Of a stretch of DNA of 56,561 nucleotides, positions 1,632 to 24,460 are shown piece by piece. This DNA is from Actinomycetes bacterium (GTDB taxonomy: Bacteria > Actinomycetota > Acidimicrobiia > Acidimicrobiales > GCA-2861595). The notes below the pieces were generated by a model that saw nothing but the letters and a program-made list of their open reading frames with translations, made no database searches and was not told where the DNA came from. Location: contig JAHFUS010000019.1 of the NCBI GenBank assembly GCA_023264975.1, forward strand, positions 1 to 56,561, read 5' to 3'. Within the stretch, counting starts at the first letter, position 1, and each line of letters starts with the position of its first letter. The translations under genes were made by a program, and so were the position numbers.

Positions 1632-2371
1632 CCCGGCGCAACATGCTCATCGCCGGCGCCGCCGCCGGCCTCGTCCTTGTGCTCTGGTACGTCCTCCTCT
1701 GGTCGCCCCGCAAGGCCGACCTCGCCGAGGCGAGGGACCGTCGGGAGAAGGCCGCGGTCATGCGCGACGAACTGGCCATCCGTGTGACCCGGCTGCGTGC
1801 CTCCCAGAAGGACGAGCCCATGAAGCGGGCCCAGGTGGAGGCGTTGCGCACCACCATCCCCGACGACCCCAATCTGGCCGCCTTCATCCTCGATACCAAC
1901 GACGCCGCCACCAAGTCCGGGATCGACTTCATGAGCATCGCCCCGAGCGAGCCGGCGCCAGGAGCCGCTGTCGCCGGTGTGGCCGCCGTCAACACGTCGA
2001 CGGCAGCTGGCGGGGCGCCGGCCACCGCCGGGGCCCCGCCCGCCGAGGTCAAGCTGCAGCTCCAGATCACCGGTGGGTACTTCCAGGTGCTCGACTTCCT
2101 CAACCGGATCAACGAGATGCCCCGACTTGTGATCACCGACGCGCTCAACGTCAGCAGTGACGAGAAGGCCAAGCTCAGTGTCGGCGTCACCGCACGCATG
2201 TTCGTCCGGACCGTGCCAGCGGCCTTCGGCGGGGTGCCCGTCGCACCGGCCGCTCCTGCTGCACCGCTTGCAGCCGCGAGCGTGACCTCCACCCCCGCCG
2301 CGTCCACTCCTCCGCCCACGGCGACGGCGGCCCCCGCCGTTCCCGCCAATACCTCTGGAGCCCGGTCATGA
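1628..2371 (+). CDS. pilO: PilO, type IV pilus inner-membrane protein
   Basis: A 247-residue bitopic protein. The short cytoplasmic tail (VTRRN) is followed by a membrane helix at about 6-28, a charged coiled coil (about 30-75) and a periplasmic domain with the PilO pattern (ITGGYFQVLDFLNRINEMPRL). A low-complexity Ala/Pro/Thr tail covers the last 50 residues. PilO pairs with PilN in the periplasm to form the alignment complex between the inner membrane and the pilus machinery. The GTG start overlaps the TGA of the upstream gene (GTGA), and its own stop overlaps the next ATG (ATGA). The Ala/Pro linker inside the periplasmic domain (about 115-137) is unusual but in keeping with this organism's liking for such linkers. 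Confidence 0.82.
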   Translation: MTRRNMLIAGAAAGLVLVLWYVLLWSPRKADLAEARDRREKAAVMRDELAIRVTRLRASQKDEPMKRAQVEALRTTIPDDPNLAAFILDTNDAATKSGIDFMSIAPSEPAPGAAVAGVAAVNTSTAAGGAPATAGAPPAEVKLQLQITGGYFQVLDFLNRINEMPRLVITDALNVSSDEKAKLSVGVTARMFVRTVPAAFGGVPVAPAAPAAPLAAASVTSTPAASTPPPTATAAPAVPANTSGARS

Positions 2372-3033
2372 CCGCCCCGCTTGAAGTCGCCGCCGAGCCC
2401 CGCAACCGACTCCCGCTCCTGGTGGGTGGCGGGCTGGCGGTGGTGCTCCTGCTCTTCCTCGTCACCAAGGTGCTCGGTGGCGGGGGGGGCGGCGACGCCG
2501 AGACGTCGACCCCGCCCACAGTCAGCACGCCCGCCGCCGGCGCCACGACGGCCGTAGCTCCGGCGGCGCCGGCCGAGGCCGCCCCGGTGGAGACGTTCGA
2601 GGTGTTCAACACCAAGAACCCCTTCATGCCGCTGCGCACCGCAGCCGTCGCCTCGGCAGCGGCTGCACCCGCCGCCCAGACGGCGGCGCCGAAGCCGGGG
2701 ACCGTGGCCACGCCGGTGGCCGTCGCCACCCCCGCAGCCGTCGCCACCGTGACCACCGTTGCGCCCGCCACAGCCGTCCAGGTCGGAACGGCCGGTGGTC
2801 AGGCCACCGCACCCGCCCGGTCCACCAGGGTGGCGCTGCTCGACGTGTTCACCGAGGGCGGCCGGGTCGTCGCCAACGTGCGGGTGAACGACACGGTCTC
2901 CAAGGTCGCCGCCGGCGACAGCTTCGCCTCCAACTTCAAGGTCGTGTCCCTCGACACGGCCGAGCGGTGCGGGCGCTTCCTCTTCGGGGACGACCAGTTC
3001 CGCCTGTGCAAGGGCGAGGAACTCCTGAAGTAG
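2368..3033 (+). CDS. PilP/GspC-like pilus assembly protein
   Basis: 221 residues with one membrane helix (about 15-34), a Gly6 stretch, a long Ala/Thr/Pro linker, and a short motif NTKNPFMPL that resembles the NPF segment of PilP and GspC proteins. The C-terminal 75 residues (STRVALLDVF to KGEELLK) form a small beta domain with one Cys pair (CGRFLFGDDQFRLC), like the HR domain of GspC/PilP. In the Pil system this protein links PilN/PilO to the outer part of the apparatus. Actinobacteria generally lack an outer-membrane secretin, so its partner here is unclear. Last gene of the pil operon. Function rests on position and a weak motif match. Confidence 0.6.
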   Translation: MTAPLEVAAEPRNRLPLLVGGGLAVVLLLFLVTKVLGGGGGGDAETSTPPTVSTPAAGATTAVAPAAPAEAAPVETFEVFNTKNPFMPLRTAAVASAAAAPAAQTAAPKPGTVATPVAVATPAAVATVTTVAPATAVQVGTAGGQATAPARSTRVALLDVFTEGGRVVANVRVNDTVSKVAAGDSFASNFKVVSLDTAERCGRFLFGDDQFRLCKGEELLK

Positions 3034-17760: not shown

Positions 17761-18499
17761 GACCCTTCCCCGCCGCGGCGCGGATGTGCGGAACCGGTTG
17801 GCCATCGCCCTCGATGTCGACGACCTGGTGGAGGCGACCCGGATCGCCAAGGAGGTGCGGCCCTGGTTCGGCGTGGCCAAGGTGGGCCTCGAGCTCTACA
17901 GCGCGTCAGGGCCCGATGCCGTGGTCGAGATGATCGAGTGCGGCTACCGCGTCTTTCTCGACCTGAAGTTGCACGACATCCCCACCACGGTGCGCCGGGC
18001 CGCCCACGTGGTGGGGGCGCTCGGGGCGTCGTACCTCACACTGCACGCCATCGGCGGCTCGCCCATGCTACGGGCGGGCGTCGAGGGCTTCGCGAACGGC
18101 GCCGGCAACGCCGGGCTGCCGGCTCCCATCGCACTCGCAGTCACCATTCTCACCAGCGACGGCGACGCCCCGCCTCACGTTCTGGGCAAGCGGGTGCGGA
18201 ACGCCGTCGAGTCCGGGTGCCGTGGCCTGGTGTGCGCGGCGAGCGACGTGAAGGAGGCCAAGCAGCTGGGGCCCCGGCTCGTCACCGTCGTGCCCGGCAT
18301 CCGACCGGCCGGCGCCGGCCGCGACGACCAGGTGCGGGTGTCCACGCCCCAGGGTGCACTCGCCGCCGGCGCCGACCTGCTGGTGATCGGGCGGGCCGTG
18401 ACCGCCGCCGCCGACAGGGCCAAGGCGGCCGACTTGCTCGTCGGGCCGCTTTCGCTGGAGCGCCGCTCGCCCGATCGCGACCCCGCCGCCAGGACGTAA
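17747..18499 (+). CDS. pyrF: Orotidine 5'-phosphate decarboxylase
   Basis: Decarboxylates OMP to UMP, the final step of the operon's pathway. 250 residues. The catalytic Asp-Lys-Asp network is in FLDLKLHDIPTTV (Asp72, Lys74, Asp77), and the phosphate-binding VVPGIRPAG is near residue 183. The N-terminal ALDVDDLVEA strand is typical of the short bacterial group. The ATG lies within the end of pyrD, so translation is coupled. It is the last gene of the pyr unit; a strong hairpin follows at 18529. Confidence 0.96.
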   Translation: MSEVETLPRRGADVRNRLAIALDVDDLVEATRIAKEVRPWFGVAKVGLELYSASGPDAVVEMIECGYRVFLDLKLHDIPTTVRRAAHVVGALGASYLTLHAIGGSPMLRAGVEGFANGAGNAGLPAPIALAVTILTSDGDAPPHVLGKRVRNAVESGCRGLVCAASDVKEAKQLGPRLVTVVPGIRPAGAGRDDQVRVSTPQGALAAGADLLVIGRAVTAAADRAKAADLLVGPLSLERRSPDRDPAART

Positions 18500-18528
18500 C
18501 CGCGCCCGCTTCGAGCCCACGGCTCGCG

Positions 18529-18564
18529 CCAATGTGGCCAGGCCCGACGGCCTGACCACATTGG
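18529..18564. terminator. Bidirectional hairpin between pyrF and a convergent small gene
   Basis: 16-base arms CCAATGTGGCCAGGCC (18529-18544) and 18549-18564 pair with one mismatch around loop CGAC. It lies between the ends of two convergent genes and could stop transcription from both sides, though no T run follows. Confidence 0.6.
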
Positions 18565-18575
18565 TTCGGGAAGGG

Positions 18576-18734
18576 CTACTTGCAGGGATTCTTGCGGACT
18601 TCCGGGCCGTACGTGTGGCCGTCGTGCTTGTCCGGGGGGCCGCAGTCGTGGTTGGCGAATGCGTTCGTCGGTGCGATGACGACCATGACTGCTGCAATGA
18701 GCACTCCGGCCATCACCCGCTTGGCGGTCTTCAA
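18576..18734 (-). CDS. Small secreted Cys/His protein, 52 residues
   Basis: A perfect ribosome site (GAGGAGGT on the minus strand) sits 6 nt before TTG at 18734. The product starts LKTAKRVMAGVLIAAVMVV, a basic tail plus hydrophobic helix, followed by IAPTNAFA and a likely signal-peptidase site AFA/NHD. The predicted mature peptide is only about 25 residues (NHDCGPPDKHDGHTYG then PEVRKNPCK), rich in His, Asp and Pro and with two Cys that could form a disulfide. No family was recognised. The signal peptide, start site and terminator make it a credible real gene. It could be a metal-binding, signalling or antimicrobial peptide; none of these is shown. Confidence 0.65.
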   Translation of the reverse strand: MKTAKRVMAGVLIAAVMVVIAPTNAFANHDCGPPDKHDGHTYGPEVRKNPCK

Positions 18735-18940
18735 GGCGCTACCTCCTCTCCCGGGTCGAGAAGAAACGGTTGAAGGAGCGTTCGACCCGCTTGCCGGACC
18801 GGCGCCACCGAACCCGAGGGTAGGCGGCCGGAGATGCGGAACACAGTGCCAAAAGGCCCATGATCCGCATTTCACCCGAGGGCCCGGAGGGGGCGGGCGC
18901 TTGCGCCGGCGCGCCGGAAGACTGGTTCGGGCCGTCGCGC

Positions 18941-18946
18941 TATGGT
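18941..18946 (+). promoter_or_regulatory. -10 box of a leaderless mihF transcript
   Basis: TATGGT ends 7 nt before GTG 18954. That spacing puts the transcription start at or next to the start codon. The 18735-18940 stretch upstream otherwise shows only the ribosome site of the divergent small gene. Confidence 0.6.
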
Positions 18947-18953
18947 GCTCGGC

Positions 18954-19274
18954 GTGGCCCTTCCCCCGAAGCTGTCGCCGGAGGATCGCCAGGCGGCGCT
19001 GGCCAAGGCGGCGGCCAACCGGCGCCAGCGGGCCGAGCTGAAAGAGAAGCTCAAGATGGGCTCGATCAACCTCTCCGAGGTGCTCGATCTGGCGGACCGC
19101 GACGAGGTGGTGGGCCGAACCCACGTGGTCGCCGTGCTCGAGTCGCTGCCCGGTCTCGGCAAGGTGAAGGCCCGTCGGCTGATGGAGACCGTGTGCATCA
19201 GCGGCAACCGCCGGCTCCAGGGCCTGGGGGCGCAGCAGCGCGTCCGCCTGCTCAAGGAACTGGGGAAGCCCTGA
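18954..19274 (+). CDS. mihF: Actinobacterial integration host factor
   Basis: Nucleoid-associated DNA-binding protein found essentially only in Actinobacteria, essential in mycobacteria. 106 residues from GTG 18954 (ALPPKLSPEDRQAALAKAA). An N-terminal helix precedes the helix-two-turn-helix domain with the H2TH signature ESLPGLGKVKARRLMETV, and RRLQGLGAQQR closes it. ATG 18942 would add four residues but overlaps the proposed -10 box. Position between pyrF and gmk is the usual actinobacterial order. Overlaps the gmk start by CTGA. Confidence 0.93.
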   Translation: MALPPKLSPEDRQAALAKAAANRRQRAELKEKLKMGSINLSEVLDLADRDEVVGRTHVVAVLESLPGLGKVKARRLMETVCISGNRRLQGLGAQQRVRLLKELGKP

Positions 19275-22648: not shown

Positions 22649-24460
22649 GTGGTGCGCGTCCTCCCCGACGTGGCCGCCCTCGACAAGACGTTCGACTATG
22701 TCGTGCCCGACGGATGGGACGGCGACGTCCGGATCGGCACCGTGGTGCGGGTGTCGCTGCACGGCCGGCGCGTCGGCGGGTGGGTGGTGGCCGACGGGGT
22801 GACGCCACCCGCCGGGATACGCCTCCGACCGCTGGCCAAGGTCACCGGCTGGGGCCCGCCGGCGGCTCTGGTCGATCTGGCCGAGTGGGCGGCGTGGCGG
22901 TGGGCCGGACCGGTACGGGCCGTGCTGCGTTCGGCCTCCCCGCCTGGCGCGGTGCGGGGGCTCCCGCCCGCCCCGGCGCCACCGAATGTCGCAGGCGGCC
23001 CGCCACCGAATGTCGCAGGCGCCCCGCCACCGAATGTCGCAGGCGCCCCGGCGCCACCGAATGCCGCAGGCGGCCCGACGCCACCGAATGTCGCGGCGGC
23101 CCACGACGGCAACGACCCGCTGACCGTCGACGCGCTCGCCCGCCATCGTGCCGTCGTCCGGTTGCCGCCGGCTGCCGACCCGTACCCGTTCGCCTTGGCC
23201 GCTGCCCGCCGAGGCGAGGCACTGGTGCTCACGCCGTCGGTGGAGCAGGCGGTCCAGTTGGCCCGGCGACTGCGGGGAGACGGGGTGCCGGTCGCGCTGG
23301 CGCCGCGCGACTGGGCCAGGGCGGCGGCCGGGGGCTCGGTGGTGGTGGGCGCCCGGGCGGCGGCCTGGAGTCCAGTGCCGGACTTGGCTGCGGTCGTGGT
23401 GGTCGACGCCCACGACGAGGCGTACCGGGAGGAGCGGTCGCCCACGTGGAACGCGTGGGAGGTGGCGGCCGAGCGGGCCCGCCGGGCGGGCGTGGTGTGC
23501 GTGCTGCTGTCGCCGTGCCCCACCCTCGAGCAGTTGGCATGGGGTGACCTGCTGGCGCCGTCCCGGTCCACCGAACGGGCCGGGTGGCCGGCCGTCGAGA
23601 TCGTCGACCGGCGCAGGGCGGACCCCCGGTCCGGCCTCTACTCCGACCGGGTGGTGGCGCTCATCCGCAGCGGCGGGCTCGTCGCGTGCATCCTCAACCG
23701 CAAGGGCCGGGCCCGGCTGCTGGCGTGCGCCGCATGCGGCGAGCTGCTCCGCTGCGAGCACTGCGACGGGGGCCTGGCCCAGAACGACGACGGCGACGGG
23801 CTGCGGTGCCGGCGGTGCACCCGCTCCCGTGCGGCGGTGTGCCAGGCGTGCGGCGCCACCCGCCTCCGCAGGCTGCGGCCGGGCGTCACCCGGGTGCGGG
23901 AGGAGCTGGAGGCGCTCGCCGGCCGCCCGGTCGCAGAGGTCACCGGCGACTCGGACCACCTGCCCGACGCCGGCGTCCTCGTCGGCACCGAGGCACTGCT
24001 CCACCGGCTGGGCGCGGCCGACGCGGTGGTGTTCCTCGACTTCGACCAGGAACTGCTGGCCTCCCGCTACCGGGCAGCCGAGCAGGCCCTCGCCCTCCTC
24101 ACCCGGGCGGCGCGGCTGGTGGGCGGTCGGGGCGCCGGCGGTCGCATCGTCGTGCAGACCCGGGTACCGGGCCACGAGGTCCTCCGCGCCGCGGTGCACG
24201 CCGATGCCGGCCGCCTCACCGGCCCGGAGCTCGCCCGCCGGGCCGACCTGCGTCTCCCTCCTGCGACCGCCCTCGCCGTCGTCTCCGGCGACGCGGCCGG
24301 GTTCGTGGCCGCACTCGGGCCCGGCGTCGAGGTGCTTGGCCCGACGGATGGCCGCTGGCTCGTGCGGGCGCCCGACCACGCCACGTTGGCTGCCGCCCTC
24401 GCCGCCGCGCCGCGCACCGGTGCGCGACTCCGGGTGGAGGTCGATCCGGCGCGGGAGTGA
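22649..24460 (+). CDS. priA: PriA-like primosomal protein lacking helicase motifs
   Basis: 603 residues. The 3'-DNA-binding domain (about 1-100, LPDVAALDKTFDYVVPDGW) and the zinc domain with four CxxC pairs (about 350-410: CAACGELLRCEHCDGGL, then CRRCTRSRAAVCQACG) are clear. Where Walker A (GSGKT) should be, the sequence is LPPAADPYPFALAAARRGEA, and the DEEH box is reduced to VVVDAHDEAY, so ATPase activity is not expected. This matches other actinobacterial PriA proteins, which probably keep only the fork-binding and DnaB-loading roles. A proline-rich tandem-repeat insert covers about residues 111-151. GTG 22649 (or 22652) start. Confidence 0.88.
   Translation: MVRVLPDVAALDKTFDYVVPDGWDGDVRIGTVVRVSLHGRRVGGWVVADGVTPPAGIRLRPLAKVTGWGPPAALVDLAEWAAWRWAGPVRAVLRSASPPGAVRGLPPAPAPPNVAGGPPPNVAGAPPPNVAGAPAPPNAAGGPTPPNVAAAHDGNDPLTVDALARHRAVVRLPPAADPYPFALAAARRGEALVLTPSVEQAVQLARRLRGDGVPVALAPRDWARAAAGGSVVVGARAAAWSPVPDLAAVVVVDAHDEAYREERSPTWNAWEVAAERARRAGVVCVLLSPCPTLEQLAWGDLLAPSRSTERAGWPAVEIVDRRRADPRSGLYSDRVVALIRSGGLVACILNRKGRARLLACAACGELLRCEHCDGGLAQNDDGDGLRCRRCTRSRAAVCQACGATRLRRLRPGVTRVREELEALAGRPVAEVTGDSDHLPDAGVLVGTEALLHRLGAADAVVFLDFDQELLASRYRAAEQALALLTRAARLVGGRGAGGRIVVQTRVPGHEVLRAAVHADAGRLTGPELARRADLRLPPATALAVVSGDAAGFVAALGPGVEVLGPTDGRWLVRAPDHATLAAALAAAPRTGARLRVEVDPARE
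22979..23101 (+). repeat. Five in-frame 24/27-bp tandem repeats inside priA
   Basis: Copies of CCACCGAATGTCGCAGGC begin at 22979, 23003, 23027, 23054 and 23081, with one base change in the fourth and another in the last. They encode PPNVAG-type units joined by Gly-Pro or Ala-Pro. All periods are multiples of three, so the frame is kept. The insert separates the DNA-binding domain from the degenerate helicase core. Confidence 0.9.

Follow-up and report, generated by a model that had tools for sequence, protein, structure and literature searches.

A candidate orphan gene for a small secreted peptide between pyrF and mIHF in an actinomycete genome

A short ORF between two housekeeping genes, pyrF and the mIHF gene, is probably a gene. 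The best explanation of the locus, held with moderate confidence, is a lineage-restricted orphan gene for a secreted peptide, placed in a pyrF-mIHF gap that is normally nearly closed. The ORF was identified in the window, i.e., the whole stretch of 56,561 nucleotides that was analyzed, and has the opposite orientation to the pyr genes. Translation of the reverse complement of 18576-18734 (TTG, 51 further codons, and TAG, with the start read as Met) gives MKTAKRVMAGVLIAAVMVVIAPTNAFA / NHDCGPPDKHDGHTYGPEVRKNPCK. The features of the locus are as follows:

18576..18734, minus strand: ORF of 52 codons plus TAG with a TTG start, encoding a predicted secreted peptide (from the sequence and the codon and filter scans)
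18654..18734, minus strand: predicted signal peptide, residues 1-27, MKTAKRVMAGVLIAAVMVVIAPTNAFA (from the sequence and our own crude rule)
18579..18653, minus strand: predicted mature peptide, residues 28-52, with Cys31, Cys51, His29, His37, and His40 (from the sequence)
18741..18746, minus strand: GGAGGT, a ribosome-binding site 6 bases ahead of the start codon (from the sequence)
18529..18564, minus strand: hairpin lying 11 bases beyond the stop codon, its arms 16 nt each and its loop 4 nt, without a T run (from repeat and fold analysis)

The predicted front of the peptide carries the features of Sec export, namely a positively charged start, a hydrophobic core, and an AxA-type cleavage site, as called by our own crude rule and not by a trained predictor. 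The predicted mature tail after AFA comprises 25 residues, NHDCGPPDKHDGHTYGPEVRKNPCK, among them two Cys and three His. The coordinates and the description of the ORF in the first-pass annotation hold, and the strand, which was absent from it, is minus. The ribosome site that it had described is GGAGGT at 18746-18741, 6 bases ahead of the TTG, and the signal peptide with an AFA cleavage site was recovered as a signal-like front ending in AFA under the crude rule. Its proposal of a small secreted peptide that carries two Cys and three His and fits no known family is supported as a prediction.

Pfam assigned the neighbors of the ORF to the carbamoyl-phosphate synthase large chain, dihydroorotate dehydrogenase, OMP decarboxylase (pyrF), and an S13-like H2TH protein, as well as to guanylate kinase, the coaBC flavoprotein, S-adenosylmethionine synthetase, and PriA, all of them on the plus strand. 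The S13-like H2TH protein, which we take to be mIHF, is present in 57 of 59 genomes, own genome included. From relatives, 29 loci were fetched, and 26 of them allowed the pyrF stop to be located. The pyrF-mIHF gap measures 442 nt in the window compared to 1-154 nt in 24 of these 26 relatives, the two exceptions being gaps of 331 nt (L039) and 1397 nt (L029). In the sole genome of the same genus that was compared (G001), the gap is 151 nt and holds no such peptide ORF. Because the gap reaches 442 nt here against at most 154 nt in 24 of 26 relatives, the ORF resembles an insertion private to this lineage or a gene that changes very fast. It would thus occupy a lineage-specific stretch in an otherwise tight neighborhood, which could have come about by gain here as well as by loss elsewhere. 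For 392 bases of the interval, neither the own genome nor 20 relatives showed a second copy beyond short chance matches, and direct repeats within the interval were small and chance-sized. In L029, from another genome of the order, a reverse-strand ORF of 391 residues was found at 1849-3024 between pyrF and mIHF. It reads like a flavoprotein-type reductase, and the pyrF-mIHF junction thus houses unrelated inserted genes.

The peptide is single-copy in its own genome. No homologue was found in the own genome and 58 relatives (59 genomes, chance-level matches only), in 397 genomes of the order including the own (396 others, rows at chance level), or in 396 genomes of the phylum including the own (395 others); these three samples overlap and each includes the own genome. 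The order search returned 45 non-self rows at E <= 0.1, a threshold at which 397 genomes should yield tens of rows by chance, and none of the 30 rows inspected in context was a homologue. The same was true for the 15 fetched non-self loci inspected from the 59-genome search and for all 4 non-self rows of the phylum search. Short patterns matched 597 stretches in GTDB contigs and 32 in viral contigs, none of which were confirmed, and no match was found in phages, plasmids, NCBIfam, or PHROGs. Among PDB sequences a single match came up (E 0.93), which falls largely in the signal-peptide region, and a literature search returned nothing on this peptide. The first-pass annotation had named the lack of homologues keeping the Cys and the signal peptide as the outcome that would refute it, and this was the outcome in every collection searched. 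Since homologues are absent, a comparison of conserved Cys and His has no partners.

Several individual matches were rejected. A locus of the order (L080, genome G396) carries CCDGPGRHDGNGYGPEVRS, with 58% identity over 19 residues at E 0.039; it was taken as chance because it runs antisense to a long frame resembling an ABC-transporter permease and is without a signal peptide. A further match, NHDDGPPSRHQSH (L068, genome G180, E 0.0029), has no Cys and follows a membrane segment within a longer frame, while the weak second match in its own genome (C116, E 0.0105) contains an internal stop and is devoid of Cys. A looser pattern of the mature part found three unrelated places in GTDB contigs, two in Pseudomonas and one in Mycobacterium; none of these is an ORF with a signal peptide, and they seem to be out of frame. 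The only Pfam match was sub-threshold: PF13663 (DUF4148) resembles residues 1-37 of the peptide weakly and mostly in the signal-peptide region, but the match stops short of the second Cys, and membership was rejected at 14.6 bits against a gathering cut-off of 27 (E 0.046).

The main alternative is a chance ORF in intergenic DNA, where a ribosome-like site and a hydrophobic stretch coincide and nothing is made. The absence of relatives wherever they were searched agrees with this, as do the TTG start and the weak synonymous codon choice, which scored 0.33 compared to 0.64-0.87 in five neighboring genes and was equaled or beaten by 34% of stop-free 52-codon stretches in the window. No sigma-70-type promoter-like site was found in 18400-19000, which likewise favors chance. 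Counting against it, the frame of the ORF had the best codon score of all six, with +0.26 bits per codon compared to -0.17 to -1.58. A filter that joins a ribosome site, an ORF of 35-110 codons, and a signal-like front matched once in the whole window, at this ORF (18734-18576), but averaged only 0.07, 0.0, and 0.1 matches in Markov sequences of window length (orders 1, 2, and 3, n=30 each); the filter was devised after the ORF was seen, which lends the chance reading some weight. Across 329,803 bases of fetched loci, the filter gave one distinct match, the L014 peptide, which is itself a plausible gene and whose locus had been fetched through similarity to the window ORF. We regard a chance ORF as unlikely, albeit with a sizeable share of the probability. 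On balance, a real secreted-peptide gene is favored because the ribosome site and the signal-like front occur together, the ORF is the sole filter match in the window, and its frame is the best of six; the unusually wide pyrF-mIHF gap and the lack of the ORF in the same-genus genome add to this. The same reading is weakened by the missing homologues, the poor codon choice, and the missing promoter-like site, as well as by an uninformative fold (residues 10-52 folded alone reached a mean pLDDT of 52.7, with no reliable structure) and by the richness of catalogue singletons in artefacts.

The L014 locus encodes a predicted small secreted two-Cys peptide, MQKARMAAAAAALALVVLAPTAAMADPPGPGDKQCRPGQQGNPQPAHKGGSC, at 1498-1656. 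It is a 52-codon signal-peptide ORF ending in DKQCRPGQQGNPQPAHKGGSC and was found at E 0.17 with the window ORF as query. Pieces with the same type of tail, KQCxPGxxGNPxPxxKxGxC, occur in L101 (genome G004) and L102 (genome G016), in which the signal-peptide portion lacks an intact frame. The pattern serves as our own label for this group, whose members L014, L101, and L102 come from three genomes of the order and whose mutual similarity in the mature part exceeds all 2000 shuffles. A profile of the three against 397 genomes returned three strong matches, which are its own sources, and four weaker matches that do not read as relatives; profile A1 of the group found nothing in G000 at E <= 0.001. 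One of the weaker matches, on the minus strand of L105 at 1501-1590, keeps APGQRGN-P-FKA-GC and resembles the L014-type tail; its sequence, CAPGQRGNEPAPVFKAAGC, lies in a short open frame that lacks a signal peptide.

The window peptide could be a distant member of this group, as L014 was retrieved by the window ORF and likewise combines a signal peptide with a short two-Cys tail whose last Cys lies close to the C terminus. However, the match to L014 is confined to the signal-peptide region, and the alignments of the mature parts do not outscore shuffled sequence (P 0.64, 0.96, and 0.97), so that by this test the mature sequences are unrelated. Distant membership is therefore considered highly improbable.

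The hairpin past the stop codon has its arms at 18529-18544 and 18549-18564, which are 94% complementary. In minus-strand RNA all 16 pairs form, one of them U-G, whereas plus-strand RNA has one C-A mismatch. A terminator scan of 18400-19000 returned 0 sites, and because this is so and the T run after the hairpin is absent, the structure is not a textbook intrinsic terminator. The first-pass annotation had assigned a downstream hairpin to the peptide gene. The hairpin itself is present, but it lacks the T run and sits between convergent genes; since pyrF converges on it, it could belong to either gene.

Alternatively, the locus could be mainly regulatory and act as a leader or antisense RNA, where the ORF would play a minor or regulatory role. 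The lowest-energy fold pairs GGAGG almost completely and joins the site and the start codon with the upstream leader, but its energy does not surpass that of shuffles (z 0.02 for 101 nt and z -1.53 for 201 nt), and the ribosome site is equally hidden in 13% of shuffled leaders (site and start in 9%). No Rfam family was found, the lone chance match being at E 2.2, and homologues for covariation are absent. A riboswitch or structured leader was sought by Rfam, folding, and shuffles with nothing beyond chance, and a mainly regulatory locus appears quite improbable. An inverted repeat, CGGGTCGA / TCGACCCG, with its arms 22 nt apart, lies at window positions 18752-18789 immediately upstream of the ribosome site. 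It competes with the leader fold predicted to mask the ribosome site and start, and was within chance by shuffling.

If the ORF is a secreted-peptide gene, translation from the TTG start, Sec export, and cleavage after AFA would free a hydrophilic peptide of 25 residues. In the likeliest mode of action, Cys31 and Cys51 would close outside the cell into one disulfide loop carrying His37 and His40, with His29 as the second residue from the new N terminus. The peptide could then act as a small extracellular binder, most likely of a metal ion (e.g., Cu or Zn). The ORF, the ribosome site, the signal-like front, and the insertion at the locus compared with relatives are observed, whereas expression, export, cleavage, disulfide, and ligand are all proposed here from sequence, and because homologues and a reliable fold are absent, the function is deduced from composition. 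The metal or disulfide mechanism, for which the first-pass annotation had called the mature part suited, is compatible with that composition, though we consider it rather unlikely. Still more speculative, and a long shot in our view, is a secreted peptide factor confined to a single species, either newly arisen or acquired; its disulfide loop and N-terminal Xaa-His would bind a metal ion or a target extracellularly, and it would sit in the same pyrF-mIHF spot that took an unrelated reverse-strand gene in the L029 lineage.

By sequence, the window peptide looks like an orphan small secreted peptide of a familiar and ordinary lineage-specific kind. In the smORF catalogue report, 84.7% of collapsed smORFs are singletons and 15.3% of families are transmembrane or secreted (PMC11364881). 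According to the same report, the global catalogue left out singletons as enriched in artefacts (PMC11364881). The window peptide resembles the catalogued orphan or singleton small secreted proteins described there in having fewer than 100 codons, predicted secretion, and no function (PMC11364881), but differs in that its locus context and a strong ribosome site are known. If expressed, it would be a further species-specific exported mini-protein below usual gene-calling limits. It would also mark an insertion site that can be dated, which would help in studying the origin of such genes. The peptide alone opens no long-standing question. Elsewhere in the window, PPNVAGG-type repeats occur at about 22970-23110 in a PriA-like ORF (22649-24460), just past its N-terminal domain.
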